Assembly (NCBI GenBank): GCA_011391865.1
Contig: JAABPV010000033.1
Location: 1-64,000, forward strand
Source: Desulfobulbaceae bacterium
GTDB lineage: Bacteria; Desulfobacterota; Desulfobulbia; Desulfobulbales; Desulfobulbaceae
Length of the DNA stretch: 64,000 nucleotides
Direction: 5' to 3'
Under the pieces are notes generated by a model. The model was not told the DNA's origin and searched no databases. It saw nothing but the letters and a program-made list of their open reading frames with translations. Shown here piece by piece: positions 15,346 to 30,901 of the stretch. The stretch's first letter is position 1. Each line of letters begins with the position of its first letter. A program made the position numbers and the translations under genes.

Positions 15346-15725
15346 GGGAGTATGCGCTGGATGCAGGTGATCACCTCGTCAATGTCAAAGGGCTTAGTGA
15401 CATAGGCTGCCGCGCCCAGCTCCAACGCCTTCCGCTCCGACTCCTCCCGCACCAGCACGGTGAAGATGACCACCGGAATGTCCTTGAGCGCGGCATCCGC
15501 CTTGAGCTGCGTCAGCACCTCGAAGCCGTCCTCGCCGGGCATGAAAAAATCCAGCAGGATGAGATCCGGCTGAACCTCTTTGGCCCGGCGCAAGCCGTCC
15601 TGACCGTCTTCGGCCAAAGCTGCCGTGTAGCCGTGCCGCTCCAGCACAATCTGGAGAACACGGCGGTTGGCGGCGTTGTCGTCAATAACTAAAATTTTCG
15701 GAGACCTTGCATTCATGTCCGTCAT
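15342..15725 (-). CDS. Single-domain response regulator
   Basis: This 127-residue receiver has Asp59 in LILLDFFMPGEDG as phospho-acceptor, VIDDN as acidic pocket and Lys111 in VTKPFD. There is no output domain. The reading frame stays open upstream to about 15896, but the ATG at 15725 places the receiver fold at the N-terminus and has a purine-rich GAGAG about 8 bases ahead, so it is preferred. It overlaps the MASE3 kinase start by 4 bases and is probably that kinase's partner or the partner of another kinase in the run. Confidence 0.88.
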   Translation of the reverse strand: MTDMNARSPKILVIDDNAANRRVLQIVLERHGYTAALAEDGQDGLRRAKEVQPDLILLDFFMPGEDGFEVLTQLKADAALKDIPVVIFTVLVREESERKALELGAAAYVTKPFDIDEVITCIQRILP

Positions 15726-15801
15726 ACGGCACACTCTCTCTGCGGTTTCAGGTTCCGAGGGATTGCCCATGCCGGAGCGGCAGACCAAATCCCTCCCTCC
15801 A

Positions 15802-16014
15802 TCATACGGCAGGCAGAAGGGAATGACAATCAGCATTGCCAGAGCGTTTTGAAAAGTGCAGGCCGATGCTCGCGTTCCGCTTCGGCTGCGGCGCAAGCCA
15901 AGTCAGGCCGATGCCGACGCAGAGCACGGCCAGCAGGAAAACCGCCAGCAGAAAAAGGACAACTGCGACATGGCCGAACCGCCGCCCGCGCATTTCAGGG
16001 TTTTTTGCCGTCAC
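15802..16014 (-). CDS. Small single-pass membrane protein, hypothetical
   Basis: This 70-codon frame starts at an ATG preceded by GGAG at 9 bases, and sits about 60 bases downstream of a good promoter on the same strand. Residues 16-41 are strongly hydrophobic (VAVVLFLLAVFLLAVL and onward) and would form one membrane helix after a positively charged N-terminus. I know no homologue. It could be a small regulator of the MASE3 kinase whose operon it leads. Its 3' end lies 77 bases before the response regulator start. A non-coding leader is the alternative. Confidence 0.5.
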   Translation of the reverse strand: MTAKNPEMRGRRFGHVAVVLFLLAVFLLAVLCVGIGLTWLAPQPKRNASIGLHFSKRSGNADCHSLLPAV

Positions 16015-16079
16015 AACAGGATCTCCGTATCAAAAATAGAAAGCCGCCTTTCATTATAGCTGGAGCGTGATAACTTGAC

Positions 16080-16108
16080 ATTATATTTAACAGGTATCAT
16101 CTTGTTAA
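16080..16108 (-). promoter_or_regulatory. Sigma-70-type promoter for the 16-4.7 kb signalling operon
   Basis: On the minus strand TTAACA (16108-16103) and a perfect TATAAT (16085-16080) are separated by exactly 17 bases. Transcription would begin near 16073, about 60 bases before the small membrane protein ATG at 16014. The region is AT-rich and non-coding. The overlapping ATCTT-GTT-AAGAT dyad (about 16100-16112) could bind a regulator. Confidence 0.65.
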
Positions 16109-16238
16109 GATTGGATAATATCAACACAAGTTCTGTCTCGTTTTATCCTGCTTCAGCTATACCAAAAAAAAAACACCCTGTCAAATCCGCTCTGTCTCTG
16201 CTTTGGGCAACTGGCGAATATCGCTTGAAGACTTTGCC

Positions 16239-16268
16239 TTGACGCGAGCCGGGCAAAACAGATATACT
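16239..16268 (+). promoter_or_regulatory. Sigma-70-type promoter for the ferritin-like gene
   Basis: TTGACG (16239-16244) and TATACT (16263-16268) are separated by 18 bases, predicting a start near 16275 and a leader of about 70 bases. The leader begins with two direct copies of the 12-mer ACTGCAACCCGC (16266-16289). The rest of 16015-16345 holds only this promoter, the divergent one and AT-rich sequence. Confidence 0.55.
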
Positions 16269-16345
16269 GCAACCCGCACTGCAACCCGCGCCCTGCGCCG
16301 GAACAACTGCCGCCTCTGCCCCTCATCCGCATCAGGAGAACCGCC

Positions 16346-17359
16346 ATGAACAGCCCGGAAGCCCGGAAAGTGTGGACCAAACAGCTCGTGCAGGAGCACG
16401 CGCAGGCCGCCGCCGCCGTGGAGCTGTACACCCTGCCGCTCTATCTCACCGCGATGGCCTCGGTCAAGGACCAGCGCAGCGAAGCCGCCCGGATTATCTT
16501 CAGCGTGGCGGCGGAGGAGATGCTCCATCTCCAGCTGGCTGCCAACCTCTGCGCCGCTCTCGACACCACGCCTTGCTTCAGGCCGCCGCAGTACGGCGCG
16601 GATGTCCCGCACATCAAGCCCTACGACCCAGAGACCGGCGAACGAGCCTTCCTCAACGCCACGCTGGGGCCTCTGGACGACGAGCGGCTGAACATCATGC
16701 TCGACATTGAAAACCCGGAGGAGCTGCCGCTCAATCAGGCTGTCGATCATTCTACCCCGCAGCATCCGTATAGCTCAATCGGCGAGATGTACGACGGTCT
16801 GATGGTCGGCATCAAGCAGGTGGGACTGGAGCAGTTCGGCTGGAGCACCAAGCATCAGCAGGCGCACTGGCCGACGCAGCAGTTCCCGCAGATCATCGCC
16901 AGCTACGCCGACGCGCGCAACGCGGTGCAGGCCGTGACGAACCAAGGCGAGGGCCACATCCTCGGCGAGGTGCTGAAGTCGCCGCCGTGGACGGAAAAAA
17001 ACTTCCCCATCCCGCCCTATTACCGCCTGCTGCGTGATGCCCACGACCCAGAGCCGTACAACGGCTACGCCCACTTTGGCCGTTTCCTCAAGCTGAAGAA
17101 CGACGGGCCGCCGGAGGTCTTCACCGGCGTGGAGCGGCCCGGCGATCCGGTAAACAAGCCGCTTCAGCAGAACTTCTTTCAGCTGCTGATGATGCTGGAG
17201 CTGCTCTGGACCAACGGCGGAGCCAACTTCGGCGGCAGTGACATGCTCTGGGCCGCCGCTCAGGGCGTGATGCGGCAGCTGGTCGCCAATGCGCGGGCCT
17301 GCTGGAAGGCCGGGGTGATACCCTGCTGGTTTGATCCTGAGACAGTGGGGAAAGGATAA
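16346..17359 (+). CDS. Ferritin-like protein of the VioB/RebD (iminophenyl-pyruvate dimer synthase) type
   Basis: The first 230 or so residues of this 337-residue protein resemble the ferritin-like domain found in VioB, RebD and StaD. It has a first helix EHAQAAAAVELYTLPLYL, a second helix with the di-metal ExxH-type motif EEMLHLQLAANL, and later SIGEMYDGLMVGI. It lacks the long additional domains of VioB. Related stand-alone proteins occur in many bacteria without indole-alkaloid pathways, so the substrate is unknown and the name only indicates the fold. The start has a good ribosome site (AGGAGAACCGCC-ATG). A MOSC protein gene follows after 48 bases and may be co-transcribed. Confidence 0.8.
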   Translation: MNSPEARKVWTKQLVQEHAQAAAAVELYTLPLYLTAMASVKDQRSEAARIIFSVAAEEMLHLQLAANLCAALDTTPCFRPPQYGADVPHIKPYDPETGERAFLNATLGPLDDERLNIMLDIENPEELPLNQAVDHSTPQHPYSSIGEMYDGLMVGIKQVGLEQFGWSTKHQQAHWPTQQFPQIIASYADARNAVQAVTNQGEGHILGEVLKSPPWTEKNFPIPPYYRLLRDAHDPEPYNGYAHFGRFLKLKNDGPPEVFTGVERPGDPVNKPLQQNFFQLLMMLELLWTNGGANFGGSDMLWAAAQGVMRQLVANARACWKAGVIPCWFDPETVGKG

Positions 17360-17407
17360 CGCGGTGTCAAAGGTTCCTGCAATCAGAAAGACAAAGAAGG
17401 AGGCGGC

Positions 17408-17848
17408 ATGAGCGCGGTCATTGAGGCAGTCTGCATCAGCGCAAAGAAGGGCATAGTAAAGAAGGCGGCGGCACAGGCCGAGTTTCAGGTCGGCTTCGGC
17501 ATTGTCGGCGACGCGCACGGCGGCGACTGGCACAGGCAGGTTTCCCTGCTGGCCGGGGAGAGTATTGACAAGGTGAAGGAAAAGCTGCCCCAGCTCAAGG
17601 ACGGTGCCTTTGCCGAGAATGTCGTCACGCGGGGGATCGACCTGTCGGCAGTGCGGATCGGCGACCGCCTGCGCCTTGGCCGCGAGGTGGTGCTGGAGAT
17701 CACCCAGATCGGCAAGCATTGCCACAACGACGGCTGCGCGATCAAGAAAGCCACGGGTGACTGCATCATGCCGAAGGAGGGCCTCTTCGCCAGAGTCATT
17801 GCGGGCGGCACGGCCAAGGCCGGAGATGCGGTCTGCGTGGCGGCGTGA
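17408..17848 (+). CDS. MOSC-domain protein
   Basis: This 146-residue protein is a stand-alone MOSC (molybdenum cofactor sulfurase C-terminal) domain. The typical blocks are GIVGDAHGG near the N-terminus, FAENVVTRG in the middle, and the Cys-containing stretch IGKHCHNDGCAI then GDCIMPKEGLFARV. Such small proteins are thought to bind molybdopterin or carry sulfur for metal-sulfur cluster assembly, often beside moa/mog genes. None is visible here. The ribosome site AAGGAGG precedes the ATG. A palindromic array begins 26 bases after the stop. Confidence 0.88.
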   Translation: MSAVIEAVCISAKKGIVKKAAAQAEFQVGFGIVGDAHGGDWHRQVSLLAGESIDKVKEKLPQLKDGAFAENVVTRGIDLSAVRIGDRLRLGREVVLEITQIGKHCHNDGCAIKKATGDCIMPKEGLFARVIAGGTAKAGDAVCVAA

Positions 17849-17873
17849 ATCACCGCACCGCAGACCGGCTGGA

Positions 17874-18006
17874 TCGTGATACCTATCATGCCGCTGTCGT
17901 TATACGTATAACGACTCTGCCATGATACGTATAACGACGCTGCCGTGATACGTATGATGATTTTGCCGTGATACCTATCACGGCAGATTCGGGATACGTA
18001 TCCTTT
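17874..18006. repeat. Palindromic array A: six 18-bp dyads with exact 23-bp period
   Basis: Six dyad units are centred at 17882.5, 17905.5, 17928.5, 17951.5, 17974.5 and 17997.5, exactly 23 bases apart. Each 18-bp unit is variable around CGTGATAC/GTATCACG; unit 2 extends to the perfect palindrome GTCGTTATACGTATAACGAC. Five-base linkers read CGCTG, CTCTG, CGCTG, TTTTG and CAGAT. The array lies in the 225-base gap between the MOSC and PLD-like genes. The last unit, GGATACGTATCC, is followed by five T's and could act as a weak terminator. Confidence 0.9.
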
Positions 18007-18073
18007 TTGGGGAGCATGGAGGGACGCGGCGGCGACGTTTACTTTTGCATAAAACCAAGAATAGATATTGAAA

Positions 18074-18829
18074 ATGGCAAAGTTTGTTAACACCAGAAAG
18101 GCCGTCTCTGAGTTAGAGGATATCATCAGAAACGCTCGAGAAAATTTGTATCTCGTGTCACCATACCTGAAGCTGTCCAAAGATTTCAGAGATCTTCTTG
18201 ACTATAGAAACAGCAAGAACAAAGTCACAACCGTTATTTTCGGGAAGCACGAGCTGAAGCCCGACGAACTGAATTTCTTGCAGAGTCTGCGCTTCATTGT
18301 TTTGTATTACCATGAGGACTTGCACGCCAAGTGCTATGCGAATGATGACAAGATGATCATCACATCTTTGAATCTCTATGAGTTCTCGATGGCGAACAAC
18401 AAGGAGATGGGTGTCCTCATCGACAGGAACGACCCGGCGGATGCGCAGACATTCGCAGACGCGATGGCTGAAGTTGATTTTATCATGTCAACCAGTGGCC
18501 GTTATGAGTTCACTGCGGAAAAGATAAATGGCTCCGAGCGGGTGCGTGAACAGTCAGCGCACCAGAAAGCAGCGGTCAAGCCTGCGGCTGCTCCGAAGAA
18601 GCAGGCTGCCACGGGGTATTGCATCCGCACCGGAGTGGAAATTCCGTTCAATATCGAAAAGCCGTTCTGCTATGAGGCATATAAGTCATGGAGCAAATTC
18701 GAGAACGGCGACTATCCAGAAAAGTATTGCCATTTCTCCGGCGAGCCATCCGATGGAGAAACCTGTTTCAACAAGCCAATCCTGAAGAAGAACTGGAAGA
18801 AAGCGCAGGAGGAGCATGGTGTTAAATGA
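18074..18829 (+). CDS. Phospholipase D-like nuclease family protein with degenerate Cys-rich tail
   Basis: This protein of about 251 residues has a PLD-like domain (residues 1-150). It carries one HxK motif (DLHAKCYAND) followed by the downstream NLYEF block, and one HKD-type half-site implies dimerisation. After a Lys/Ala linker (about 165-180) comes a tail built on GYCIRTG, FCYEAYKSW, YCHFSG and TCFNKPIL. In relatives as I recall them these positions carry CxxC pairs; here only the first Cys of each is kept. The ATG at 18074 is chosen over an in-frame TTG at 18068; neither has a strong ribosome site. Codon use is more AT-rich than the flanking genes, suggesting acquisition. Possible roles are DNA end processing or defence. 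Confidence 0.75.
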   Translation: MAKFVNTRKAVSELEDIIRNARENLYLVSPYLKLSKDFRDLLDYRNSKNKVTTVIFGKHELKPDELNFLQSLRFIVLYYHEDLHAKCYANDDKMIITSLNLYEFSMANNKEMGVLIDRNDPADAQTFADAMAEVDFIMSTSGRYEFTAEKINGSERVREQSAHQKAAVKPAAAPKKQAATGYCIRTGVEIPFNIEKPFCYEAYKSWSKFENGDYPEKYCHFSGEPSDGETCFNKPILKKNWKKAQEEHGVK

Positions 18830-18878
18830 GAAGATGGTGCTCAAGTCAAACGGGCCGCCGTAAGCTCTCAATCTTGGC

Positions 18879-19378
18879 ATGACCGCCGCTGAACTCATCC
18901 GCCTCCTGCAACTGGAGCCGCATCCGCTGGAAGGAGGGTATTTCCGCCGCACCTACGAATCAAGCCTGCGCTGCGACTGCGGCTATGGCGGCAGGCCGCT
19001 GCTGACTTCGATCTATTATCTGCTCACGCAGGAAAGCCCAATCGGGTTGCTGCATCGGAACAGATCAGATATTCTGCATTATCATCAGCGCGGCGCGGCT
19101 GTCAAATACCTCCTCATCTCCCCGGAGGGCAGCCTGTCAGAGCGGATATCCTCGGCCCGGACATTGCGCATGGCGAGAGCTTGCAGCTGCTGGTTCCGGG
19201 CGGCTGGTGGAAAGCGTCGCGGCTCTGCGGCGGCGAATATGCCCTGATCAGCGAGGCGGTCGCGCCGGGCTTCGACTATGCGGACAACGAGATTGCGACA
19301 GAGGAGCTGGCGCGGCGGCTCTGTCCAGAGTTCAGCATGAGACTGGAGGAATACGCATGGTGCGTCAGGAAGAATTGA
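18879..19378 (+). pseudogene. DUF985 (cupin-like) gene with a frameshift near 19150
   Basis: The 5' part reads as a DUF985/cupin_5 protein (LEPHPLEGGYFRRTYES, TSIYYLLT and the metal-site-like HRNRSDILHYHQRG). Just after SLSERI near 19150 the frame is lost. The expected continuation LGPDIAHGESLQLLVPGGWW, then APGFDYADNEI, lies in a neighbouring frame ending at 19378. Adding one base at this point restores one continuous domain. It is therefore either a recent pseudogene or a base-calling error. The last 22 bases overlap the DUF4258 gene. No good ribosome site precedes the ATG at 18879. Confidence 0.75.
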
Positions 19379-19674
19379 CCGCTGCGGTCGATCAAAGAGC
19401 GGTTGAATGGTCGGCGCACGCTTTGCGCAGGATGCTGGAACGCGGAATATCGAGAGAAGCTGTTCTGCATGTCCTCTGCAATGGAGAGATAATCGAAGCC
19501 TATCCAGACGACCGTCCCTTTCCCAGCGCATTGCTCTTCGGCATCTGGGTCAATAAAGCTTTGCACGTTGTTGCCGCATACAATCCGGCGGAGCGGAAGG
19601 TATTCATCATTTCAGCCTATCATCCCGATGCCGAACATTTCGAGCACGACTTCAAGACGAGGAAAAAGAAATGA
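19357..19674 (+). CDS. DUF4258 protein, probable toxin of a toxin-antitoxin pair
   Basis: This 105-residue protein matches DUF4258. It has a WSAHALRRMLERGIS helix, a GEIIEAYPDD strand, LLFGIWVNKALHVVAAY and the end block IISAYHPDAEHFEHDF. The family is structurally related to RelE/BrnT-like RNases and is often paired with a YgiT-type zinc-finger protein, as here. The ATG at 19357 has GGAGG 6-7 bases upstream and is preferred over earlier in-frame codons that would read into the DUF985 gene. The stop overlaps the next gene's ATG by 4 bases, the standard coupling of such modules. Confidence 0.8.
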   Translation: MVRQEELTAAVDQRAVEWSAHALRRMLERGISREAVLHVLCNGEIIEAYPDDRPFPSALLFGIWVNKALHVVAAYNPAERKVFIISAYHPDAEHFEHDFKTRKKK

Positions 19675-19946
19675 ATCCTGACAGCGGACTATGCCCGATC
19701 TGCGGCGGCAGCAAAACAGAGGGAGCCATCACCTTCACAGCGGATTTGCAGGAAACACTGGTGGTTGTCCGGGGCGTTCCGGCAACGGTCTGCGCACTCT
19801 GCGGCAATGAGTGGCTGGATGATGCGACTGCCGCCGCGCTGGAGCGGATTGTCGAGGAAGCAAGAAAGAAAAACTGTCTCTTTGAAGTTGCCCAGTTCAG
19901 CACTTTCAGCCAGAGCGCGGCAGCAAGTCCAATTCATGCCGCATAA
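19671..19946 (+). CDS. YgiT/MqsA-type zinc-finger protein, probable antitoxin
   Basis: The N-terminal half of this 91-residue protein has two CxxC knuckles (CPICGG at residues 8-13 and CALCGN near 41-46), a zinc-binding fold shared with the MqsA N-terminus. No complete Xre-type helix-turn-helix follows; the C-terminus is a helix (ATAAALERIVEEARKK) and a Ser/Ala-rich tail. It overlaps the DUF4258 gene by 4 bases, so the two form a toxin-antitoxin-like operon. The antitoxin role is inferred from this arrangement. The thiE start is within or just beyond its end. Confidence 0.8.
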   Translation: MNPDSGLCPICGGSKTEGAITFTADLQETLVVVRGVPATVCALCGNEWLDDATAAALERIVEEARKKNCLFEVAQFSTFSQSAAASPIHAA

Positions 19947-19953
19947 TGCAATC

Positions 19954-20994
19954 ATGAACGAATCCAGACTCCTTGACGCAAACATCAACCGCGCAGCCGA
20001 GGGCCTGCGGGTGTTGGAAGACATCGCCCGCTTCTCCTTCAATCAGCAGGAACTTTCTGCTGAACTGCGCGGCCTGCGCCATACGGTGCGCGACCTCTTC
20101 CGAGGCCGTGAGAGCGGCCTGCTGGCTGCCCGCAATGCGACAAATGACGTGGGCAAAAGCACATCCGGGCAAAGCCTGAGCGACCAGCGCAGCGGTCTGC
20201 GTGACACGGCCCAGGCCAACTTCAAGCGCGTGCAGGAGGCAGCGAGAACCTTGGAGGAAGTCCTCAAGGCGCAGGGCGAGTACGCGGCAGGCAAGCAGCT
20301 AGAGCAGCTGCGCTTTTCGGTCTATGAGCTGGAATCCCGTTTCCTGCCGCTCTTCCGCCGCAACCTGCCTGCGGGTATTTACGGCATCTTGGGCGAGAAG
20401 TTCTCCCGTGGCCGCAGCAACGCGGACGTGGCCCAGCAGATGACCGATGCCGGAGTGCGGATCATTCAGTACCGGGAAAAGCTGAAGGACAAGAGCATCA
20501 GGGCGATCTACGAGGAATGCCTGACCATCCGCCGCCTCACGCAGGAGGCGGGCGCGCTGTTCATCATCAATGATTATGCCGAGATTGCCCTGATGGTCGG
20601 CGCGGACGGCGTGCATCAGGGGCAGGATGACCTGCCGGTCAGCGAGCTGCGCCGAATTGCGCCTAGCCTGCTCATTGGTTGCTCAACCCACAGCCCGGAG
20701 CAAGCAGAACAGGCGGTGCGCGACGGCGCGGACTACATCGGCGTGGGGCCGATATTCAGCACCCAGACCAAAGAGGATGTCTGCGCCCCGGTTGGGCTGA
20801 ATTATCTCGACTACGTGGCAAAAAACATTCATATTCCCTTTGTCGCCATTGGCGGCATCAAACGGGAGACCCTGCCGCAGGTGCTCGCGCATGGCGCAAA
20901 GACCGTCTGCTTGGTCACGGAGATCATCGGCGCGGAGAACATCGGGCAGAGGGTCAGGGAGATTCAACAGATTATAGCAGCAGCGCAACCATGA
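19954..20994 (+). CDS. thiE: Thiamine-phosphate synthase with N-terminal ThiD2-like domain
   Basis: The first 130 or so residues of this 346-residue protein (opening LLDANINRAAEGLRVLED) match the helical ThiD2 domain found in some bacterial ThiE proteins and proposed to phosphorylate HMP-P. The C-terminal TIM barrel (about 140-346) is ThiE, joining HMP-PP and thiazole phosphate to thiamine phosphate. It shows IIQYREK, ADGVHQGQDDLP, GVGPIFSTQTK and AIGGIK. One polypeptide may therefore do two consecutive steps. An in-frame ATG at 19936 is an alternative start that would overlap the YgiT gene. thiC follows after a palindromic array. Confidence 0.88.
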   Translation: MNESRLLDANINRAAEGLRVLEDIARFSFNQQELSAELRGLRHTVRDLFRGRESGLLAARNATNDVGKSTSGQSLSDQRSGLRDTAQANFKRVQEAARTLEEVLKAQGEYAAGKQLEQLRFSVYELESRFLPLFRRNLPAGIYGILGEKFSRGRSNADVAQQMTDAGVRIIQYREKLKDKSIRAIYEECLTIRRLTQEAGALFIINDYAEIALMVGADGVHQGQDDLPVSELRRIAPSLLIGCSTHSPEQAEQAVRDGADYIGVGPIFSTQTKEDVCAPVGLNYLDYVAKNIHIPFVAIGGIKRETLPQVLAHGAKTVCLVTEIIGAENIGQRVREIQQIIAAAQP

Positions 20995-21012
20995 GCCTGC
21001 GTTGCCTGCGGC

Positions 21013-21122
21013 GATCATAACACTTATGTCCCTCCGACTATAGTGCTTATGTCAGTCGGACATAAGTGCTTATGTCGCTCCGACCTAAGCGTTATAGTCC
21101 GCCCGACATACGTGCTATGGCA
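21013..21122. repeat. Palindromic array B: five 18-bp dyads with exact 23-bp period
   Basis: Units are centred at 21021.5, 21044.5, 21067.5, 21090.5 and 21113.5. The central unit is GACATAAGTGCTTATGTC; the others are variants of it. Linkers are CCTCC, AGTCG, GCTCC and CGCCC. The array fills most of the 154-base gap between thiE and thiC. The geometry equals that of array A, but the palindrome sequence is unrelated. No TPP riboswitch signature is visible in the gap. Confidence 0.9.
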
Positions 21123-21148
21123 ATGCGGGACCAACTTCAGGAGAACAA

Positions 21149-22432
21149 ATGACACAAGCATACACCACCCAGATGGACGCGGCCCGCAAAGGCATCATCA
21201 CCCCGCAAATGCGCGAGGTTTTAGCCAATGAGGTCATCTCTGAACAGCTCTTGCTGGAGCGGGTGGCGCAGGGACGCATCGCCATCCCGGCCAACAAGCA
21301 TCACCACAATCTCAAGGCGGCAGGAGTTGGTCAAGGTTTGAAGACCAAGATCAATGTCAATCTCGGTGTGTCCAAGGATGTCTGCTCCTTCGAGGGCGAG
21401 ATGAACAAGGCCCGGCTCTCGCTCAAGTACAAGGCCGACGCGATCATGGATCTGAGTGTGTCCGGCGACACCGAAGGCTTCCGCAAGCGGCTGGTGGCCG
21501 AGGTGCCGGTGATGATCGGCACGGTGCCGATTTACGATACCCTAACCCGCACCGGCAAGCCCACGGAGCAGATCACGGTGGAGGATTGGTTCGAGACCGT
21601 GCGGATTCATGCTGAGAACGGGATTGATTTCATCACGATTCATGCTGGTCTGAACCAGAAGTGCGCCAGCAGTCTGCGCCTCAATAAACGGCTTTGCGGC
21701 ATTGTCAGCAGAGGCGGAGCGATTCTGTATGAATGGATGGCGAAGACCGGGCAGGAGAATCCTTTCTACGAGCACTTCGACCGGCTGCTTGCTATTTGCG
21801 AGCAGCACGATGTCTGCATCAGCTTGGGCGATGGTCTTCGGCCTGGCGCAATCAAGGATTCGACAGACGCGCCGCAGATCGAGGAGCTGATCACGCTCGG
21901 CGAGCTGACTAAGCGGGCTTGGGCGCATAACGTGCAGGTGATGATCGAGGGGCCGGGTCATGTTCCCCTGCATGAGGTAGAGATGAACATGAAGCTGCAA
22001 AAGAAGCTCTGCCACCACGCGCCCTTCTATGTCCTCGGCCCGCTGGTCACGGACATTGCGCCCGGTTATGATCACATCACCTCAGCCATTGGCGGCGCGC
22101 TGGCAGCCATGCACGGGGCAGACTTCCTCTGCTACGTCACCCCGGCAGAGCATCTGCGCCTGCCTTCTGCTGACGACGTGAAGGAAGGCATCATCGCCTC
22201 CAAGATCGCTGCTCATGCGGGTGATTTGGCCAAAGGCATTCCCGGCGCGGCGGACTTGGATCATGCGATGAGCGCGGCACGAGGCAGCTTGGACTGGGAA
22301 GGACAATTCAACCTTGCCCTTGACCCGGAGAAAGCGAGGGCCTACCGTGCCTCCTCTGAGCCTGCGGACAAAGGCGTTTGCACTATGTGCGGCGACTTTT
22401 GCTCGATGAAGCGGCTGAAAGGGCTGCTGTAA
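21149..22432 (+). CDS. thiC: Phosphomethylpyrimidine synthase ThiC
   Basis: This 427-residue radical-SAM enzyme converts aminoimidazole ribotide to HMP-P, the pyrimidine precursor of thiamine. The C-terminal cluster motif CTMCGDFC (CxxCxxxxC) binds the 4Fe-4S cluster. Other family blocks are [49 protein letters not shown] and IEGPGHVP. Length fits the shorter bacterial/archaeal ThiC form without the N-terminal extension of E. coli. The ribosome site GGAG lies just ahead of the ATG. It follows thiE, so both thiamine halves are made from one locus. Confidence 0.96.
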
Positions 22433-22437
22433 GAACG

Positions 22438-23652
22438 ATGCATATTGACACGATGCGGGCCATTGACCGCTGGCTGGGGATTCCGCTGACGTTTGCGCTC
22501 ACCCAGGCCCTGCGGCTGCGGGATTTCTTTATGCCTCCGGCTCTGGCCCGGCCCAAGCGCGTCCTTTTTATTGAGCTGTCGGAGATGGGATCAACCATCT
22601 TGGCTGATCCCGCCCTGCGCAAGGCCAAGACCAAGCTGGGCGCGGAGCTGTTCTTTGTCATCTTCGCAGGCAACCGTGGCAGTCTTGATCTGCTCGGCAC
22701 GGTGCCGCTGGAGAACATCTTCACCTTGCGCGAGGACAGCCTCTTCACGCTGGCCGCCGACACCCTGCGTTTCCTCGCTTGGACGCGGCGGCACGGCATT
22801 GATGCCGTGGTGGATCTGGAGCTGTTCTCCCGCTTCACCGCCCTGCTCACTGGAGCCAGCGGCGCGGCCAGCCGGGTCGGCTTTCACCGCTTCTGCGGCG
22901 AGGGCCTTTACCGAGGCGAGATGCTCACGCACCGGGTAGCCTACAACCCGCATCTGCATATTGCCAAGAACTTCGTCGCCTTGGTCAACAGCCTGTTGGC
23001 GGCGGAGCCGGAGCTGCCGTATTGCAAGCAACTGATCGGCGAGGAGGAAATCAGTCTGCCTGTGCTCCGTTTTAGCGAGGCGGAGCTGGCTGGAATGCAC
23101 CGACGGGTGGCGGAGCATTATCCTGAATATGATCCGACCCGGCACCGACTGGTCTTGATCAACCCCAACGCCAGCGAGATGCTGCCGCAGCGTCGCTGGC
23201 CTGCGGAACGCTTCATAGAGCTGACCCGGCGCATTCTGGAAGCCGCGTCGGACGTGCTGGTGCTGATCACCGGCGCGCCTGCGGAGCGGGCTGAAGCGTC
23301 GGCGCAGTGCGCGGCTGCCGGCAGCCTGCGCTGCGTCAACTTTGCGGGCGCGGTGCAGCTGGCCGAGCTGCCGCTGCTCTACAGCATCTCAACGCTGATG
23401 GTGACCAACGATTCCGGGCCAGGCCATTTTTCAGCAATCACCCCACTGCCGGTCTTTGTTCTCTTCGGCCCAGAAACCCCCAATCTCTACGGCTCGCTTG
23501 GCAAGGCCACGCCGATTTACGCCGGGCTGGCCTGCTCGCCCTGCGTCAGCGCAGCCAATCACCGCAAAACCCCCTGCACGGACAATAAATGCCTGCAAGC
23601 GATCAGCGTGGAGCAGGTCTTCGCGGCCATTGAGCCGCTGCTGCGGGGTTGA
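22438..23652 (+). CDS. Glycosyltransferase family 9 (heptosyltransferase-like)
   Basis: This protein of about 404 residues has a GT-B fold of the ADP-heptose:LPS heptosyltransferase family. The N-terminal Rossmann half has RVLFIELSEMGSTILADPALR. The C-terminal half has INPNASEMLPQRRWPAERF, a TNDSGPGHFSA donor-site motif (family TxDSGPxH) and LFGPETPNLYG. A Cys-rich tail (ACSPCVSAANHRKTPCTDNKC) is common in this subgroup. It probably adds heptose or another sugar to a cell-surface glycan on the cytoplasmic face. The start 5 bases after thiC suggests co-transcription without an obvious functional link. Confidence 0.85.
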   Translation: MHIDTMRAIDRWLGIPLTFALTQALRLRDFFMPPALARPKRVLFIELSEMGSTILADPALRKAKTKLGAELFFVIFAGNRGSLDLLGTVPLENIFTLREDSLFTLAADTLRFLAWTRRHGIDAVVDLELFSRFTALLTGASGAASRVGFHRFCGEGLYRGEMLTHRVAYNPHLHIAKNFVALVNSLLAAEPELPYCKQLIGEEEISLPVLRFSEAELAGMHRRVAEHYPEYDPTRHRLVLINPNASEMLPQRRWPAERFIELTRRILEAASDVLVLITGAPAERAEASAQCAAAGSLRCVNFAGAVQLAELPLLYSISTLMVTNDSGPGHFSAITPLPVFVLFGPETPNLYGSLGKATPIYAGLACSPCVSAANHRKTPCTDNKCLQAISVEQVFAAIEPLLRG

Positions 23653-23657
23653 CAACA

Positions 23658-23688
23658 GGTCTCCGGTAGAAAAATCTGCCGGAAGACC
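23658..23688 (+). terminator. Possible hairpin terminator after the GT9 gene
   Basis: GGTCTCCGG and CCGGAAGACC can pair with a one-base bulge, extended by AGA/TCT around an A-rich loop, starting 5 bases after the stop. No long T-run follows, so intrinsic termination is uncertain. The remaining bases to 23787 show no further feature. Confidence 0.4.
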
Positions 23689-23787
23689 GCTCTCCTCCTT
23701 GCCTCCCGCCTTCTGTTTGGGTACAACTTATGGGAGGCATCATTTATTGCAGGACTGAGGCTGATCAAATATCTTGCCGGGGGAGCC

Positions 23788-25047
23788 ATGAACCGCCGCA
23801 CATTTCTCCAGCACAGCGGAAAAATAGGGGCTGCCGCCTTGGCTGCGGCAGCCTTTCCCAAACTGGGTAAGGCCCAATCCCGGCCCACGATCAAGGTGGT
23901 GGGCACCCATGTCACGCTGCTGGAGCCGATCCGGCAGAAGGCCGAGCAGGACTTGGGCATCAACATTGAGTTTCATCCCGGCGGCGACGCGGAAGTGCTG
24001 CTCAAAGCCTCGACAGACCCAACAGCTTTTGATCTCTACGAGCAATGGTCGAACAGCATCAAGGTGCTGTGGCAGGCCAAAACGATCCAGCCGATTAACA
24101 CTCGTAGACTGACTTACTGGGAAGAAATCAACAGCCTGAGCAAAACAGGTCGCATTTCAGACAAAGCCAAGCATGGCTTGGGCGACGCGCCGGACAAAAT
24201 TCTCTTTGTCCAGTCGGACGGCAGGCTTGACGGCTCCGAGACGGAGGAGATTAGTTTCCTGCCCTACGTGCATAATGTTGATTCCTTCGGCTACAACTCC
24301 AGCGTCGTTCCCAAAGGCATTCCCTATGAGACTGAGAGCTGGGGCTGGCTGTTGGATGAACGCTGGGCTGGCAAAGTCGCAATTGTCAACTCGCCGGAAA
24401 TCGGCATCTTCGACCTCGCTTTGGCGGTGCGGGCCAAGGGGCTGATGCAATTCAAGGACATGGGCAACATGAGCCGCGAGGAGGTGGATCAGCTCTTTGA
24501 CATCATCATCGCCCTGAAGCGCAAGGGACATTTTCGCGGCATGTGGACTTCAGTGCCGCATTCAGTTGAGCTGATGGCCACTAGCGAGGTGGTGATCCAG
24601 AGCATGTTCTCACCCGGAGTCAGCGCGCTCAACGGCATGGGCATCCCCTGCATTTACGCCGCGCCCAAGGAGGGCTACCGCGCCTGGCACGGGGTGATGT
24701 GCCTGTCTCGCGCCTGCGTCGACGAGCGGCAGGAAGCGGCCTACGCCTTCATGAACTGGTGGCTTTCTGGCTGGCCGGGTGCCTTCATCGCCAGGCAGGG
24801 CTATTACATTTCCAACCCCCAGCGTTCCAAGCCGTTCATGTCGCAGGCAGAGTGGGACTACTGGTACGAAGGCAAGCCTGCTGCCGAGCCGCTCATGGGC
24901 ACTGACGGCAAGATATCAGTGCAGCTGGGCGAGGTGCGCACCGGCGGCTCCTATCTCCGGCGTTTTGAGAACATCGCGGTCTGGAACACGGTCATGGACA
25001 CCTACGAGTACACCCTGACCAAGTGGAACGAATTCGTGCTGGCATAG
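23788..25047 (+). CDS. Tat-exported extracellular solute-binding protein (PotD-like)
   Basis: This 419-residue protein has a twin-arginine leader (RRTFLQ at residues 3-8, a hydrophobic Ala-rich stretch, cleavage probably after GKAQ). The mature part reads like a polyamine/iron-type periplasmic binding protein: PTIKVVGTHVTLLEPI, NVDSFGYNSSVVP and a closing C-terminal lobe with AAYAFMNWWLSG. No ABC permease or ATPase gene is nearby. The next gene, 6 bases on, is a membrane histidine kinase, so the protein more likely presents a ligand to that sensor than serves transport. The ligand is unknown. The ribosome site GGGGGAG precedes the ATG. Confidence 0.85.
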   Translation: MNRRTFLQHSGKIGAAALAAAAFPKLGKAQSRPTIKVVGTHVTLLEPIRQKAEQDLGINIEFHPGGDAEVLLKASTDPTAFDLYEQWSNSIKVLWQAKTIQPINTRRLTYWEEINSLSKTGRISDKAKHGLGDAPDKILFVQSDGRLDGSETEEISFLPYVHNVDSFGYNSSVVPKGIPYETESWGWLLDERWAGKVAIVNSPEIGIFDLALAVRAKGLMQFKDMGNMSREEVDQLFDIIIALKRKGHFRGMWTSVPHSVELMATSEVVIQSMFSPGVSALNGMGIPCIYAAPKEGYRAWHGVMCLSRACVDERQEAAYAFMNWWLSGWPGAFIARQGYYISNPQRSKPFMSQAEWDYWYEGKPAAEPLMGTDGKISVQLGEVRTGGSYLRRFENIAVWNTVMDTYEYTLTKWNEFVLA

Positions 25048-25053
25048 GAAGGC

Positions 25054-26988
25054 ATGGCCGTGACAGATTTCCTCCTACGCACTGTTGGTCTGAAGAAGCG
25101 CATCGCCTTGGGCTACATCGTCACCGGCTTGGTGGCGTTCATGATCGCCCTGCTTTCCTACGGTGCCTTCACCCGCTTGGCTGAGGACTTCCGCCAGATA
25201 GTCCACTTCAGCCGCCACTCCGCTGACAACATGGCCTTTGCCCGGCAGATGACCGAGATGCAGCGGCAGGCGCTGATCTATATCTACGAGGGACACAGCT
25301 CGGCAGGCACCCAGGTGGGTACCATCTACAAACAGATGATGGACAGCATCCTCAGCAGCCAAGATCTGGACCGAATTGGCGCAGGGGCAGTGGTCGAGCT
25401 GGCCCGTAGGCATCTGGAAGCCTACTACGAGGCTTTCCGTGAAGTCCAGCGGCAGCGGCAGCTTCAAGACCGCCTTGTCAGGAGCGAGTTCCGCGTCCAT
25501 GCCACGAGGGCGCAGCAGTTGATTGAAGAGCTGACCCGGCAGGAGGCGGCGCAGCCGGAAACCCCCGGCCTCAGGCCGCCTCTCCCGGAGAACTCTTTTC
25601 TCAGCTTCATTCCTGCCGCAGCACCGGCAGGGCAGGGCGGAGCGCGTCCCGCTTCGGAGCAGGGGTACACAGAAGCCGAGCGGATGCTGAACGGGGCCAA
25701 GATGCTTGCCTCGCTGCTGCAAATAGAGAAGAACGCCTACCGCTACTTTGACTCCTACGAGAGCAGCTTTATCCAAGCCGCGACAGCGAGCCTAGAGGAC
25801 ACGCGCGAGCGGCTCCAGACGTTCGACGGGCAGGACAAGGCGGCGGAGCTGAAGGAGGTGCTGGAGCGTTACGAGATCACCTTCCTTGAGGCTGTGCAGC
25901 GGACAAGGGGCTATCTTTACCTGATCAACGTGGTGATGTCGGCCCAGGCCTACGAGACGATCTACCAGTCGAACAAGCTCTCGGCCATGATGCTGCATGA
26001 GACGGGGCGCATTCAGCAGGAAGTGTTTGCGCACATCAGCTCACGCCAGCAGCTTTTGCTCTTCTCCACCGCCTTGCTGCTGCTCTTCATAGCCCTTTTC
26101 TCCTACCTCATCAGCCGAAGCATCACCCTGCCGCTCCGAAGGTTGACAGAGACCTTCAAGCTGCTTTCCTCTGGCTCGGCAGACGCAGAGATCCCGCCCT
26201 ACCTGCTCCAGGATGAACTGGGCGACCTCACTGGTTCGGCAGCCTCTTTCAAGGGTAAGAACATCGAGCTGCTGGCCAGCAAGAAGGAGCTTGAGCGCTC
26301 CAATGACGAGCTGGAGCAATTCGTCTATACCGTCTCGCACGATCTCAAGTCGCCGATAGTCACCAGCATGGGTTTCATCGGCATCATCCGCAAGCTGGCC
26401 GCTCAGGGCAAAGCCGAGCAGGCGATGGGGATGCTGGAGAAGGTGGTCAAGGCGAACGAGCGCATGAGTCAGCTGATCAATGACCTGTTGGAACTGAGCC
26501 GAGTCGGGCGGATCGACATGGACAAAAAGCTGGTGGATCTCAACGCGCTACTGGCGGACTTCGCCCGCAGCCAGGCAGAGCGCCTGAAGGCGGCCACGTT
26601 CACGCTGATCATCCAGCCAAACCTGCCTTCGCTCTTCGCCAACGAGAGTCGCATCCTCCAAGTCTTTGAGAATATCCTCTCCAACGCCCTCAAGTACGTG
26701 CGCAACGAGACCGAGGGCTGCCGCTTGGAGATCAACTCCTATGACGACGCGCAGCTGCACCACATTCTCTGTGCCGACAACGGCCCCGGCATCGCGGCGG
26801 AATACCGCGATAAAGTCTTCGGCCTCTTCTACCGGCTCAATGTCAACATCGAGGGCACGGGCATCGGTCTTGCCGTGGCGAAGAAGATCATGAAGTTCCA
26901 CAGCGGCGACATCAGCGCCGAGGCGAGGCCGGGCGGCGGTGCCGTCTTTCATCTCACCTTCCCAAGAGCGGAAGCAGGGCAGAGCTGA
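25054..26988 (+). CDS. Membrane sensor histidine kinase with HAMP domain, paired with the binding protein
   Basis: In this 644-residue kinase membrane helices at about 17-38 and 332-352 bracket a large periplasmic region of about 290 residues that is mostly helical. It includes a Pro/Gly-rich insert (about 165-200). A HAMP domain (about 353-405), a DHp helix with His429 in VYTVSHDLKSPIV and an HATPase domain (N-box ILSNALKY, G-box GTGIGLAVAKK) follow. The architecture suits docking of the neighbouring Tat-exported binding protein. The stop is followed by palindromic array C and then a receiver gene. Confidence 0.9.
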   Translation: MAVTDFLLRTVGLKKRIALGYIVTGLVAFMIALLSYGAFTRLAEDFRQIVHFSRHSADNMAFARQMTEMQRQALIYIYEGHSSAGTQVGTIYKQMMDSILSSQDLDRIGAGAVVELARRHLEAYYEAFREVQRQRQLQDRLVRSEFRVHATRAQQLIEELTRQEAAQPETPGLRPPLPENSFLSFIPAAAPAGQGGARPASEQGYTEAERMLNGAKMLASLLQIEKNAYRYFDSYESSFIQAATASLEDTRERLQTFDGQDKAAELKEVLERYEITFLEAVQRTRGYLYLINVVMSAQAYETIYQSNKLSAMMLHETGRIQQEVFAHISSRQQLLLFSTALLLLFIALFSYLISRSITLPLRRLTETFKLLSSGSADAEIPPYLLQDELGDLTGSAASFKGKNIELLASKKELERSNDELEQFVYTVSHDLKSPIVTSMGFIGIIRKLAAQGKAEQAMGMLEKVVKANERMSQLINDLLELSRVGRIDMDKKLVDLNALLADFARSQAERLKAATFTLIIQPNLPSLFANESRILQVFENILSNALKYVRNETEGCRLEINSYDDAQLHHILCADNGPGIAAEYRDKVFGLFYRLNVNIEGTGIGLAVAKKIMKFHSGDISAEARPGGGAVFHLTFPRAEAGQS

Positions 26989-27027
26989 ACGCCTGCTTTT
27001 CGGCAGGACACCCGTACAGAAGAACGG

Positions 27028-27098
27028 AAGGTACTCCCGTATCTAAGACAAAGATACTGGGGTATCCAAGAGGAAGGTACTCCGGTATCTTCCTCTTG
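27028..27098. repeat. Palindromic array C: three dyads with 23-bp period, last one a strong hairpin
   Basis: Core units GGTACTCCCGTATC (27030-27043), GATACTGGGGTATC (27053-27066) and GGTACTCCGGTATC (27076-27089) are centred at 27036.5, 27059.5 and 27082.5, again 23 bases apart. A degenerate fourth copy may lie at about 27006-27020. The last unit extends to a 13-bp stem (27068-27080 with 27085-27097, one G-T pair) closed by a TCCG loop, so it may terminate the kinase transcript. The array lies between the kinase and receiver genes. Confidence 0.85.
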
Positions 27099-27192
27099 CT
27101 TATTAGAAGAGGAGCTGCTGATCTGCCCAAGCGCGTTTGCGGAAGGCCGCTGCGATGCGCATTCATGAAACACCGGCTTGGAGAGGGCAAGC

Positions 27193-27648
27193 ATGGCTGA
27201 CGACGAGAAGAAACTGCTGCTGGTTGAGGACAGCGACGATCACGCGGAGCTGACAGAGTTCTACATCAACGACTGCCGCCCGGCACTGCGGGTGCGCCGC
27301 CTGCGCGACGGCGCGGAGGCGATGGCCTACATCGAGCAGGCCGAGCGGCTGGAACAGAGGCTGCCTTGGCTTGTCCTGCTGGATCTCAAGCTGCCGAAAT
27401 ACGACGGACACGAGATCCTTGCACGGATGAAGCGCAGCGGCAGATTGGCCAGTATCCCGGTGGTGATCTTCTCCACGTCCAACTCCGGCAAAGACATAGA
27501 GCAGGCCATGAGCAGCCATGCCAACAGCTACATTGTCAAGCCAATGGAAGCGGACAAGTACGGCGAGGTGATCAGCGAGATCCTTGAGTACTGGGAGCTG
27601 AACGAACACCACCATCTGCTCCGCGAGCCACGGGAAAGCCATGCCTGA
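27193..27648 (+). CDS. Single-domain response regulator (Rcp1-like)
   Basis: This 151-residue receiver has Asp64 in LVLLDLKLPK, VEDSDD as acidic pocket and Lys116 in YIVKPMEA. It has no output domain. It belongs to the same Rcp1-like type as the receiver at 5823-6287. The start ATG at 27193 has GGAGAGGG about 6 bases upstream. It overlaps the following hybrid kinase by 8 bases and follows the HAMP kinase, either of which may phosphorylate it. Confidence 0.9.
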   Translation: MADDEKKLLLVEDSDDHAELTEFYINDCRPALRVRRLRDGAEAMAYIEQAERLEQRLPWLVLLDLKLPKYDGHEILARMKRSGRLASIPVVIFSTSNSGKDIEQAMSSHANSYIVKPMEADKYGEVISEILEYWELNEHHHLLREPRESHA

Positions 27649-30253
27649 ACGCACGACGCTGAACATCCTCCTGATAGAGGACAACGACGACCACGCCGAC
27701 CTCTTTGCCGCCAACCTCGCCATGACGGCCTACGCCAACTCGCAGGTGGTGAGGCACGAGGCGCTTCGCCCCGGAGTCGCGGCGCTGGTCAATGGGTGCT
27801 TTGACCTGCTCTTCATTGATCTCTCGCTCCAAGACAGCGGCATTGCCGCGACCATGAACTGCTTGGCCGAGCTGGCCGCTTGGTGCCCGGTGATCGTCCT
27901 CACATCCTTGGATGACCGGCGCACCATCCTGGAGATCATCAAGAAAGGTGCCGATGATTGTCTGCCTAAGTCAGAGCTGAATGACATCCTCTTGGAGCGG
28001 GTTATCCACTTCAACCGCGACCGGTGGCGGCTGAAGCAGACACTGATGAAGAGCGAGGAGGCGTACAAGGATCTGTATCACAACTCACCCAACATGCTCG
28101 GCAGCATCGATGCCAAGACCCGACGGGTCATCAGCTGCAATCAGACCTTCGCGGACAAGCTGGGTTGGAGGATCGAGGACATACTTGGCCAAGAGGTTTA
28201 TGCCTTCTATCATCCCGACTGCCTCAGCCAGTACAACAAGGCCTTTGAAGAGTTTCTCATCACCGGGATCATCAGGAATGCGGAGCTGCAACTCCGGCGG
28301 AGGAACGGCAAGGCTATTGACGTGCTGCTCAACGTCTCAGCAGCGAGGGACGAGAAAGGAGACATCGTGTCCACCCGCTCGACTTGGATTGATGTCAGCG
28401 AGCGGAAAGCGGCGGACAGAAAGCTGAAGGAGATGCAGCGCTTCAACCGGCTGATTATCGAGACCATCCCTGACCTGCTCTGGCTGAAGGACGTGAGCGG
28501 CACGTATCTGGCCTGCAATCCCCGCCTCGAGCAATGCCTCGGCGCCCCGGAGGCGGAGATTGTCGGCAAAACAGATTACGACTTCATGCTCAAGGAACAT
28601 GCCGATGCCTGCCAAGAAGGCGATCTGAAGGTGATCAGCACCGGCGCGACGCAGATGCGTGAGGAGTGGGTGACGTTCGCGTCAGACGGGAGGGAGCTGC
28701 TGCTGGAAGTGGTCAAGGTGCCGCTCTTTGACGAGGAAGGCCGGGTGGAGGCAGTGATGGGCATCGGCCACGACATCACCGAGCGGAACGAGGTGATCCT
28801 GAAGACAGAAGCGGCCAACCGCGCCAAGTCGGTCTTCCTCTCCAACATGAGTCACGAGCTGCGCACTCCGCTCAATGCCATCCTCGGCTACACCCAGATC
28901 TTCCTCGGCGATGAGACGCTGACTCCCAGGCAGCGAAGCGGCATCAGCACCATTCACCAAGCGGGCGAGCACCTGCTGCTGCTGATCAATGACATCCTCG
29001 ACATCTCCCGCATTGAGTCAGGCAGGCTGGAGCTGATCGAGACTGAATTCTGCCTCGCGCCCTTCCTCAAAGGCATCCGGGAGATCATCCAGCTGCGCGC
29101 GAAGGACAAGGGGCTTGATTTCCGGGATGAAGCGGCAGGCCTGCCAGCGGTGATCATCGCTGATGAACTGCGTTTGCGGCAGGTGCTTCTCAACCTGCTC
29201 TCCAATGCGATAAAGTTTACCAGTACAGGCTGGTGCGCCCTACAGGTGCGGGCGGAATCTGCCGGACAAGGCAAGGCGAGACTGGACATCGCGGTGGAGG
29301 ACAGCGGCGCAGGCATCTCCGCTGAAGACCAGCAGTTAGTCTTTGAGCCGTTCCTTCAGGTCGGCGAGCGGCTCCAGCACCGCGAAGGCACCGGCCTCGG
29401 CTTGGCCATCAGCCGGGAGCTGGTGCGGCTGATGGGCGGCGAGCTGCGGCTTGTCAGCCCGGTCACGGACAGGCCGGAGGGCCGGGCCGGAGGGCCGGGC
29501 AGCCGCTTCTCCTTCAGCATCGAGGTGCCGGTCTCGGATCATCGGGCGGTTATTGAACACAAGCAGCGCAAGGTCAGCGGCTACGTCTGCCTGCGCCCGG
29601 TCAAGGAGAAGGAGCCGCGCCGGGTGCTGGTGGTGGACGACAAGCTCTCCAACAGGGCCGTGCTGCGCGACACTCTGGAGCCGCTGGGCTTCGCGGTGCA
29701 GGAAGCGGCGGATGGCATCGAGGTGGCAGCTGCCTGTGAACGGCTCCAGCCTGACATCATTCTTATGGACTTGCGGATGCCGAAGATGGATGGCTTCGCG
29801 GCGGCGGCACTGCTCCACAAGCACCCGGACTTCAGTAAAATTCCGGTGGTTGCCGTCACTGCTTCCATAGCCGAGGGCGACATCTTCCGTCAGCGCTGCC
29901 TTGACAACGGCTTCCGCGACTACATCCATAAACCTTTCTCCGCAGGCGAGCTGCTGGAGATCATGGCCGCTCAACTGGACATTGAGCTGCTCTACAGCGA
30001 TCCTGCGGCAGAGGCGGCGCAGGAGACAGAGCTGATCCTGCCGCCGCATCACCTGCTCAAGGAGCTGGCTTGGCTGGTTGAAGTAGGGGAAATTCAGGGC
30101 ATCACGGAAAAGGCGGCGGAGATCGCCGAAATGGAGGACGGGAAATACCGAACCTTTGCCCGGCGAGTACAGGAACTGGCTGATGACTTCCAGTTCTCCG
30201 CCCTGCAGGAGCTGACCGCCGCACAGAACAAGGAGCCGCAATGCAAACAGTGA
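27641..30253 (+). CDS. Receiver-PAS-PAS-hybrid histidine kinase
   Basis: This 870-residue soluble protein has, in order, a receiver (about 8-125, Asp60 in LLFIDLSLQ, Lys110 in LPKSE), PAS (about 130-255), PAS (about 265-385), DHp with His405 in SNMSHELRTPLN, HATPase (about 500-630, GTGLGLAIS) and a second receiver (about 660-780, Asp710 in IILMDLRMPKMDG). The C-terminal 80 residues are helical and resemble the tail of similar hybrids, but show no HPt histidine. The first receiver could accept phosphate from the preceding kinase, placing this enzyme as a second tier. It overlaps both neighbouring genes by 8-13 bases. Confidence 0.9.
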   Translation: MPERTTLNILLIEDNDDHADLFAANLAMTAYANSQVVRHEALRPGVAALVNGCFDLLFIDLSLQDSGIAATMNCLAELAAWCPVIVLTSLDDRRTILEIIKKGADDCLPKSELNDILLERVIHFNRDRWRLKQTLMKSEEAYKDLYHNSPNMLGSIDAKTRRVISCNQTFADKLGWRIEDILGQEVYAFYHPDCLSQYNKAFEEFLITGIIRNAELQLRRRNGKAIDVLLNVSAARDEKGDIVSTRSTWIDVSERKAADRKLKEMQRFNRLIIETIPDLLWLKDVSGTYLACNPRLEQCLGAPEAEIVGKTDYDFMLKEHADACQEGDLKVISTGATQMREEWVTFASDGRELLLEVVKVPLFDEEGRVEAVMGIGHDITERNEVILKTEAANRAKSVFLSNMSHELRTPLNAILGYTQIFLGDETLTPRQRSGISTIHQAGEHLLLLINDILDISRIESGRLELIETEFCLAPFLKGIREIIQLRAKDKGLDFRDEAAGLPAVIIADELRLRQVLLNLLSNAIKFTSTGWCALQVRAESAGQGKARLDIAVEDSGAGISAEDQQLVFEPFLQVGERLQHREGTGLGLAISRELVRLMGGELRLVSPVTDRPEGRAGGPGSRFSFSIEVPVSDHRAVIEHKQRKVSGYVCLRPVKEKEPRRVLVVDDKLSNRAVLRDTLEPLGFAVQEAADGIEVAAACERLQPDIILMDLRMPKMDGFAAAALLHKHPDFSKIPVVAVTASIAEGDIFRQRCLDNGFRDYIHKPFSAGELLEIMAAQLDIELLYSDPAAEAAQETELILPPHHLLKELAWLVEVGEIQGITEKAAEIAEMEDGKYRTFARRVQELADDFQFSALQELTAAQNKEPQCKQ

Positions 30254-30900: not shown

Positions 30901-30901
30901 G

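Follow-up and report, generated by a model that had tools for sequence, protein, structure and literature searches.

Proteins of the HU fold are usually DNA benders, either nonspecific (HU) or of a single specificity (IHF). Related to them are the HU-HIG clade, reportedly named in a 2017 paper in Cell Cycle, and the HU-DNA_bdg clade with its DUF4469 domain, and we are aware of no DNA address described for this group. Comparable layouts are known from class I activator and tandem-operator promoters, such as those with CRP sites at -61.5, and from the REP/BIME elements, which go with RAYT transposases. Here we analyze three intergenic palindrome arrays (arrays 1 to 3) in positions 1 to 64,000 of contig JAABPV010000033.1 (assembly GCA_011391865.1), a 64,000-nucleotide stretch that we call the window. 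All three consist of 18-bp dyads separated by 5-bp linkers, with a period of 23 bp. Judged from sequence, period-23 arrays of this kind are probably the tandem binding sites of an expanded family of HU-fold proteins, with one private palindrome per paralog, a reading to which we give a probability of roughly 0.78.

The window (C33:1-64000) belongs to a draft genome of 2.80 Mb and 87 contigs (G000). Its ThiC shares 99% identity with the ThiC proteins of Candidatus Electronema aureum GS (G003) and 'Desulfobulbus sp. F5' (G004), and the source organism is a Candidatus Electronema cable bacterium. The isolate S24.Bin023 (G021), whose ThiC shows 95% identity to the Electrothrix gigas and E. aarhusensis proteins, has no cable-bacterium label in its database record. 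It is counted here in the cable clade, by which we mean F5, E. aureum, Electronema KV (G001), E. gigas, S24.Bin023 and E. aarhusensis.

The largest paralogous cluster among 717 predicted proteins, taken from 31% of G000, has 8 members of about 350 residues; the next largest, with 7 members, looks by eye like ABC-transporter ATPases. When 15 paralogs of the 8-member type were scanned with Pfam, 7 passed the cut-off of at least one of the three profiles HU-HIG, HU-DNA_bdg and DUF4469, one was at the cut-off (26.2 bits) and the other 7 gave weaker hits below the cut-offs. All 15 are united by a profile built from the 8-member cluster. This profile matches PDB 4fmr_A (E-value 1.9e-8, profile positions 23-223), and the architecture is an HU-like N-terminal domain followed by a DUF4469 Ig-like domain in the middle. 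NCBIfam returned only weak hits, one of them to an HU-related model far under its cut-off. For four HU-like proteins, no PADLOC defence family was found at E 0.1, and two of the four weakly hit phrog_379 ('DNA binding protein') in PHROGs. A single-sequence structure prediction for one HU-like protein was useless (mean predicted local distance difference test score 31.9).

The family profile has 36 matches in G000, fragments included. Among 37 relatives the family is present in 6 (G000-G004 and G021), and by name it occurs in 6/6 cable-clade genomes and 0/7 other named genomes, with 13 matches in F5, 31 in E. aureum, 19 in KV, 17 in E. gigas, 20 in S24.Bin023 and 8 in E. aarhusensis, again including fragments. 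At E 1e-10, G000 itself was the only match to the profile among 395 genomes drawn across the phylum. Since all six cable-clade genomes have it and the other genomes searched do not, the family is a candidate for a role in filament genome organisation or differentiation. E. aureum contains many HU-like gene fragments, often only the first or last 30-100 residues and some with stops; the family seems to turn over quickly.

Period-23 arrays are associated with the genes of this family. We located 86 HU-like genes with their start, used the 84 with at least 250 bp upstream, and searched 400 bp upstream for a period-23 array of score at least 13. Such an array precedes 49 of the 84 HU-like genes versus 35 of 1325 other genes (Fisher p 8e-45), and at periods 19-22 and 24-27 the same HU-like upstreams yielded 1 to 3 of 84. 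The association holds in each of the four genomes with controls (HU-like versus control: G000, 18/33 versus 24/648; G001, 9/14 versus 3/92; G003, 8/14 versus 6/386; G021, 9/11 versus 2/199), and by eye a 23-bp array is also present upstream of one HU-like gene each in E. gigas and E. aarhusensis.

These arrays are also phase-locked to a promoter element. TTGAC, which we took as the -35 box, lies within 140 bp upstream of 76/84 HU-like genes versus 261/1325 controls. For the 45 genes having both an array and TTGAC, some of them orthologs and so not independent, the dyad phase is within 2 bp of the mean in 34 (about 9.8 expected, Rayleigh p 3e-12), and the lock is seen in G000 alone (n=17, p 1.5e-5). 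The last dyad axis falls 24-27 bp before TTGAC in 15/45 cases and 48-50 bp before it, one unit further, in 13 more. A box that starts near -36 would place the last dyad near -61, the neighbourhood in which class I activators sit. An operator in fixed register with the HU-like gene's own promoter is the layout of tandem-operator autoregulation, and the position of the array at its own promoter suggests such a mode of control. Any activator or repressor array would be phase-locked before a promoter, and one could suppose that the HU-like genes are merely targets and that a separate set of regulators reads the arrays. This would need one regulator per theme, with themes that are private to each paralog and partly follow orthologs across genera (see below), and by eye no comparable cluster of DNA-binding-like paralogs exists among the 717 proteins from 31% of the genome. 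We regard a separate regulator set as improbable.

A half-site theme could be read for 49 HU-like genes; themes of arrays beside such genes include AACATAC, CTCCATGC, CGAGCAAG and GATACGTATC. Themes are private within a genome, with 1/259 same-genome pairs sharing one, and they are partly co-inherited with the protein: across genomes, 12/35 reciprocal-best protein pairs share a theme versus 3/882 other pairs. Between Electronema and G021, 5/13 reciprocal-best pairs match in theme (64-72% protein identity). In some non-matching pairs the outer half-site letters appear by eye to be kept while the inner ones differ.

Arrays that are not upstream of a located HU-like gene, here called dispersed, can be compared with the HU-like upstreams by theme, although the upstream set used is incomplete. 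Of 34 dispersed arrays (24 in G000, 6 in G003, 3 in G001 and 1 in G021), 24 match an HU-gene upstream better than any of 1287 control upstreams and any of 20 position-shuffled themes, and 16 find such a match within the same genome. The candidate cognate of array 1 is the E. aureum HU-like gene at G003 C3:27195, with three sites 23 bp apart; those of array 2 are HU-like genes at G003 C2:170977 (L296), again in E. aureum, and at G000 C31:11133 (L228); that of array 3 is G000 C56:6019 (L233), also with three sites 23 bp apart. The best cognate scores of all three were reached by 0/1268 controls, a set that omits window 17500-27300 and locus L130, which hold the arrays or their orthologs. With those stretches among the controls, p is 0.045 for array 2 and 0.055 for array 3, and array 1 in its own genome has p 0.22 and no match.

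In 25 period-23 arrays, mean pairwise half-site identity is 0.65-0.83 at the eight half-site positions, 0.45 beside the dyad axis, and 0.27, 0.31 and 0.37 in the linker. Because the half-sites are conserved and the linker columns resemble background, the unit can be written as 8-2-8 plus a free 5-bp linker. The census entries L122:4222 and L171:19106 were taken as chance and excluded from the conservation, covariation and first matching analyses (L122:4222 was retained in the 34-array matching test and excluded from the promoter-preference count below).

Every unit is palindromic, and a geometry without a sequence could arise if the arrays acted as hairpins of RNA or single-stranded DNA (terminators, RNA stabilisers or REP-like elements) in which the fold alone matters. 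In 28 period-23 arrays, arms do pair slightly better within units than between them (5.94 versus 5.60 of 8 pairs, z 4.55), and two arrays with alternating themes are built of dyads that are each symmetric on their own; these two, and arrays of fewer than four units, were left out of the pairing test. The period-23 excess is small, however, and part of it stems from arrays with stray end units, while 17 period-21 arrays show no excess of within-unit over between-unit pairing (z -1.81). Conservation reaches the 2-bp centre and leaves no room for an RNA loop, Rfam covariance models gave 0 matches at the gathering score in window 15000-31000, and sequence evidently matters, as themes recur and match the upstreams of HU-like genes. 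Hairpin function is thus very improbable in our view. Because half-sites are conserved, linkers are free and arm covariation is little or none, the units look like double-stranded protein sites read by half-site, which fits better than selection for hairpins.

In the alternating arrays (L129:14438-14568 and L178:11968-12192), dyads with GGGATACT and ATTCATCG half-sites follow each other with a super-period of 46 bp. By eye, the upstream of the HU-like gene L234 (G000 C27:21399) has hybrid dyads with one half of each alternating theme, which might hint at a heterodimer.

Dyad arrays were counted in 864 kb of G000, a non-random sample made of the window and 40 stretches of 20 kb, mostly contig starts. 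Dyad runs were scored for symmetry alone at each period from 16 to 35. At a score of at least 20, there are 20 arrays at period 23 and 11 at period 21, and none at the other 18 periods or in one Markov-shuffled copy of the 864 kb. The preliminary description had held that absence of the 23-bp period from the rest of the genome would speak against it, and the period is in fact widespread. At a score of at least 16, the numbers are 27 at period 23, 15 at period 21 and 10 over the other 18 periods together, with 6 over all periods in the shuffled copy, 2 of them at period 23. By scaling, the whole genome may hold very roughly 65 to 90 period-23 arrays. Although 81% of the sequence is predicted to be coding, 37 of the 42 arrays with a score of at least 16 touch no predicted gene; 3 overlap a predicted gene end and 2 are internal to a predicted gene, of which L171:19106 was judged to be chance. 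Within the window, array 1 alone has a dyad score above those of 10 shuffles. The highest shuffle score is equalled by array 2 and by a place at 7861 and is not reached by array 3, in which the third unit is the best dyad and the arms of the first two are more mismatched. The doubt left by these window-only shuffles is removed by the genome-wide census.

Since G021 carries the HU-like family, arrays were expected there, as stated before the scan, and 380 kb contained 7 period-23 and 2 period-21 arrays with a score of at least 20, with none in shuffles. The G021 stretches were picked on family-bearing contigs, and most arrays there are those upstream of HU-like genes. In 100 kb each of G005, G009, G011 and G027, which have no HU-like family, no array of at least 16 was found at period 23 or 21. 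Over 80 thiC loci, three period-23 arrays reach 16, two of them in Electronema and one, near chance, in an AT-rich archaeal stretch (L081).

The period-21 arrays form a class of their own, with 8 to 17 units and several themes among the 15 in the 864 kb (L111:1744-2033, L112:18852-19121, L121:13787-14076, L110:13474-13827 and 11 others in G000). Their unit is about 9-9 plus a 3-bp linker. Inspection of their neighbours showed no common gene family, and only 2/84 HU-like genes have one upstream. Two copies of one array start with its left flank stand on either side of a run of N at L122:18500-18920, probably an assembly join at the repeat.

Array 2, in the spacer between thiE and thiC, has counterparts in F5 and E. 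aureum; in Electronema KV, E. gigas, E. aarhusensis and S24.Bin023 that spacer lacks it. At one orthologous site, 8 units in G000 correspond to 4 in E. aureum, and at a third orthologous site, besides the one with a replaced theme discussed below, the array is missing in E. aureum. Such theme swaps, gains and losses at orthologous sites, the changes by whole units and the many HU-like gene fragments in E. aureum are what dispersing selfish repeats (similar to REP or to miniature inverted-repeat transposable elements, MITEs) would produce if they settled beside HU-like genes or hitch-hiked on their duplication. Selfish repeats would not be expected to be phase-locked to the -35 box or to have themes private within a genome, and in two cases viewed by eye arrays with the same theme have no common flanks. 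Y1_Tnp (PF01797), of RAYT or another type, has one match over the cut-off in G000, at 25.9 bits. HU-like remnants were found within 900 bp of 0/36 dispersed arrays and 2/300 controls, and with these counts we also rejected the idea that dispersed arrays are relics of deleted HU-like genes. Dispersing selfish repeats are, on balance, an unlikely source of the arrays. With one Y1 match only, no arm-pairing excess at period 21 and a small one at period 23, a REP/RAYT origin was likewise not adopted.

Dispersed G000 arrays lie in 17 codirectional, 3 convergent and 5 divergent gaps and one at an edge (all intergenic gaps: 191, 20 and 56), and TTGAC follows 2/52 dispersed-array ends, 30/466 random intergenic 60-mers and 33/49 arrays at HU-like genes. 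Neither gene orientation nor TTGAC counts support promoter operators in the layout of the HU-like genes, and we favour, with low confidence, local architectural complexes or addressable anchors. In E. aureum, an array of GAGCATA theme stands upstream of each of two paralogous leucine-rich-repeat GTPase genes that look Roco-like by eye (L193:9844-9999 and L205:4289-4398). Palindromes of the GTAGGGGC...GCCCCTAC type, probably MITE-like, recur in intergenic spaces (L122, L129, L207 and upstreams of HU-like genes).

Taken as binding sites of the HU-fold family, the arrays could work as follows. The readers would be proteins with the HU-HIG/HU-DNA_bdg-type N-terminal domain and the DUF4469 Ig-like middle domain, each paralog recognising its own palindrome of two 8-bp half-sites around a 2-bp centre. 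Since the paralogs would have one protein geometry in common, all arrays would be 18+5 whatever their letters, and neighbouring dimers would bind side by side at 23 bp. The sequences show the geometry, the association with the gene family, the phase lock, the private themes and their partial co-inheritance, and we infer physical binding, autoregulation and action at the dispersed arrays. At its own gene, the array precedes a TTGACA promoter, and its last dyad axis lies ahead of the -35 box by about 25 bp, or by 25 bp plus a multiple of 23. The same address would also occur in other intergenic spaces, the three of the window included, where the protein would probably form a local architectural or blocking complex rather than act as a classic promoter regulator.

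Several observations weigh against this reading. No array was found at the score used for 35/84 HU-like genes (by eye, some have a degenerate one and some none), 23/35 reciprocal-best pairs have no common theme (the gene sets are incomplete), and 10/34 dispersed arrays remain without a match, as does array 1 in its own genome, G000. The search for specificity residues gave a best column of r 0.215 versus a permutation 95% level of 0.227. Dispersed G000 arrays show no promoter preference, and the G021 array sample is biased to contigs with HU-like genes and includes one dispersed array only. At one orthologous site with flanks 94-97% identical, the theme is CGATCACC in G000 and TTGGTGT in E. 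aureum; because the theme is replaced there, simple gene-by-gene regulation is disfavoured.

A wider interpretation, which we offer tentatively and hold to be rather less probable, is that of an address code: mutually orthogonal HU-like proteins with private 23-bp-period addresses at their own promoters and at a few dispersed sites could constitute a lineage-specific, histone-like architectural or cell-state system. The set numbers 8 to 36 HU-like matches per cable-bacteria genome, fragments included, and the system would be unlike any known bacterial nucleoid system. If true, such a code might serve, for example, a division of labour along the filament.

Positions of the window arrays and neighbouring genes are collected in Table 1. 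Array 1 is intergenic, array 2 sits between thiD2-thiE and thiC, and array 3 lies between a histidine kinase gene and the response regulator gene.

Table 1. Arrays and adjoining genes in the window.
Feature	Positions	Strand	Description
Array 1	17874..18006	no strand	six 18-bp dyads with 5-bp linkers, period 23, half-site theme TCGTGATAC
Array 2	21013..21122	no strand	five 18-bp dyads with 5-bp linkers, period 23, half-site theme GACATAAGC
Array 3	27028..27098	no strand	three 18-bp dyads with 5-bp linkers, period 23, half-site theme AAGATACTC
MOSC-domain gene, left of array 1	17408..17848	+	gene prediction; context
PLD-like gene, right of array 1	18074..18829	+	predicted start; context
thiC, right of array 2	21149..22432	+	gene prediction; context
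Response regulator gene, right of array 3	27193..27648	+	gene prediction; context

Dyad scoring and Tandem Repeats Finder (period 23 for all three; scores 111, 86 and 70) bear out the places, geometry and unit numbers given in the preliminary description. Its statement that the arrays have no common sequence is right for these three, whose units are alike inside each array and unlike between arrays; it does not extend further, as all three themes are found again elsewhere in the genome and in sister species. Of its two suggestions, proteins that read a fixed spacing are strongly supported by the free linkers, the conserved half-sites and the HU-like family with matching upstream arrays. There is no need for the other, a copying of geometry with local homogenisation; copy number does shift by whole units, as in tandem repeats generally. 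No Rfam family matches the region, and the traits of CRISPR are missing: the units vary and the linkers are 5 bp, versus near-identical repeats and spacers of about 30 bp (no cas search was made).

Array 1 (window 17872-18014) follows the MOSC gene in the window and a thiH-like gene in E. aureum and F5 (L016, L015; names by eye). In G000, thiG-thiH lie on contig C30 (L129:1097-4706), with an array of a different theme and an HU-like gene after them (names by eye).

The system of arrays and HU-like proteins is apparently undescribed in cable bacteria. Main-text passages on repeats, palindromes, DNA-binding proteins or transposases in five cable-bacteria papers (PMC10030654, PMC12093952, PMC10926707, PMC13047784, PMC11976967) contain no such arrays or proteins; supplements and most subscription papers were outside the search, so an earlier mention is possible. 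In the passages seen, 'genomic repeats' in a closed genome are mentioned without detail (PMC10030654), and repeats over 250 bp, mostly insertion sequences, are dealt with (PMC10926707). DUF4469 is not mentioned in the literature searched.

Among the closest described systems are those of the Beggiatoaceae, also large filamentous sulfur bacteria, for which many intergenic TAACTGA direct-repeat arrays are reported (PMC4679880). Those arrays use one heptamer in direct repeat, whereas here many unrelated palindromic themes share one geometry. REP/BIME elements resemble the arrays in being clustered short intergenic palindromes with several families per genome, and differ in that our arrays have little or no arm covariation, a strict period and themes tied to HU-like genes. 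A dyad axis some 25 bp ahead of the -35 hexamer, with further dyads in 23-bp register, recalls class I activator promoters; the difference is that here many paralogs with unrelated letters use one geometry, and the other copies do not keep that placement at promoters. With the HU-HIG/HU-DNA_bdg clades and DUF4469 in the HU/IHF superfamily (PF18291, PF14848, PF14734; 4fmr), the proteins share the same architecture, HU-like and then Ig-like DUF4469; here, however, a genome holds dozens of such paralogs, each with a palindromic array of its own beside it. As far as sequence comparison can tell, a whole HU-fold family appears to have branched into many private specificities that keep to one fixed geometry. 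If this is true, it would offer a natural panel in which to decode sequence reading by the HU fold, and a source of orthogonal regulator-operator pairs.

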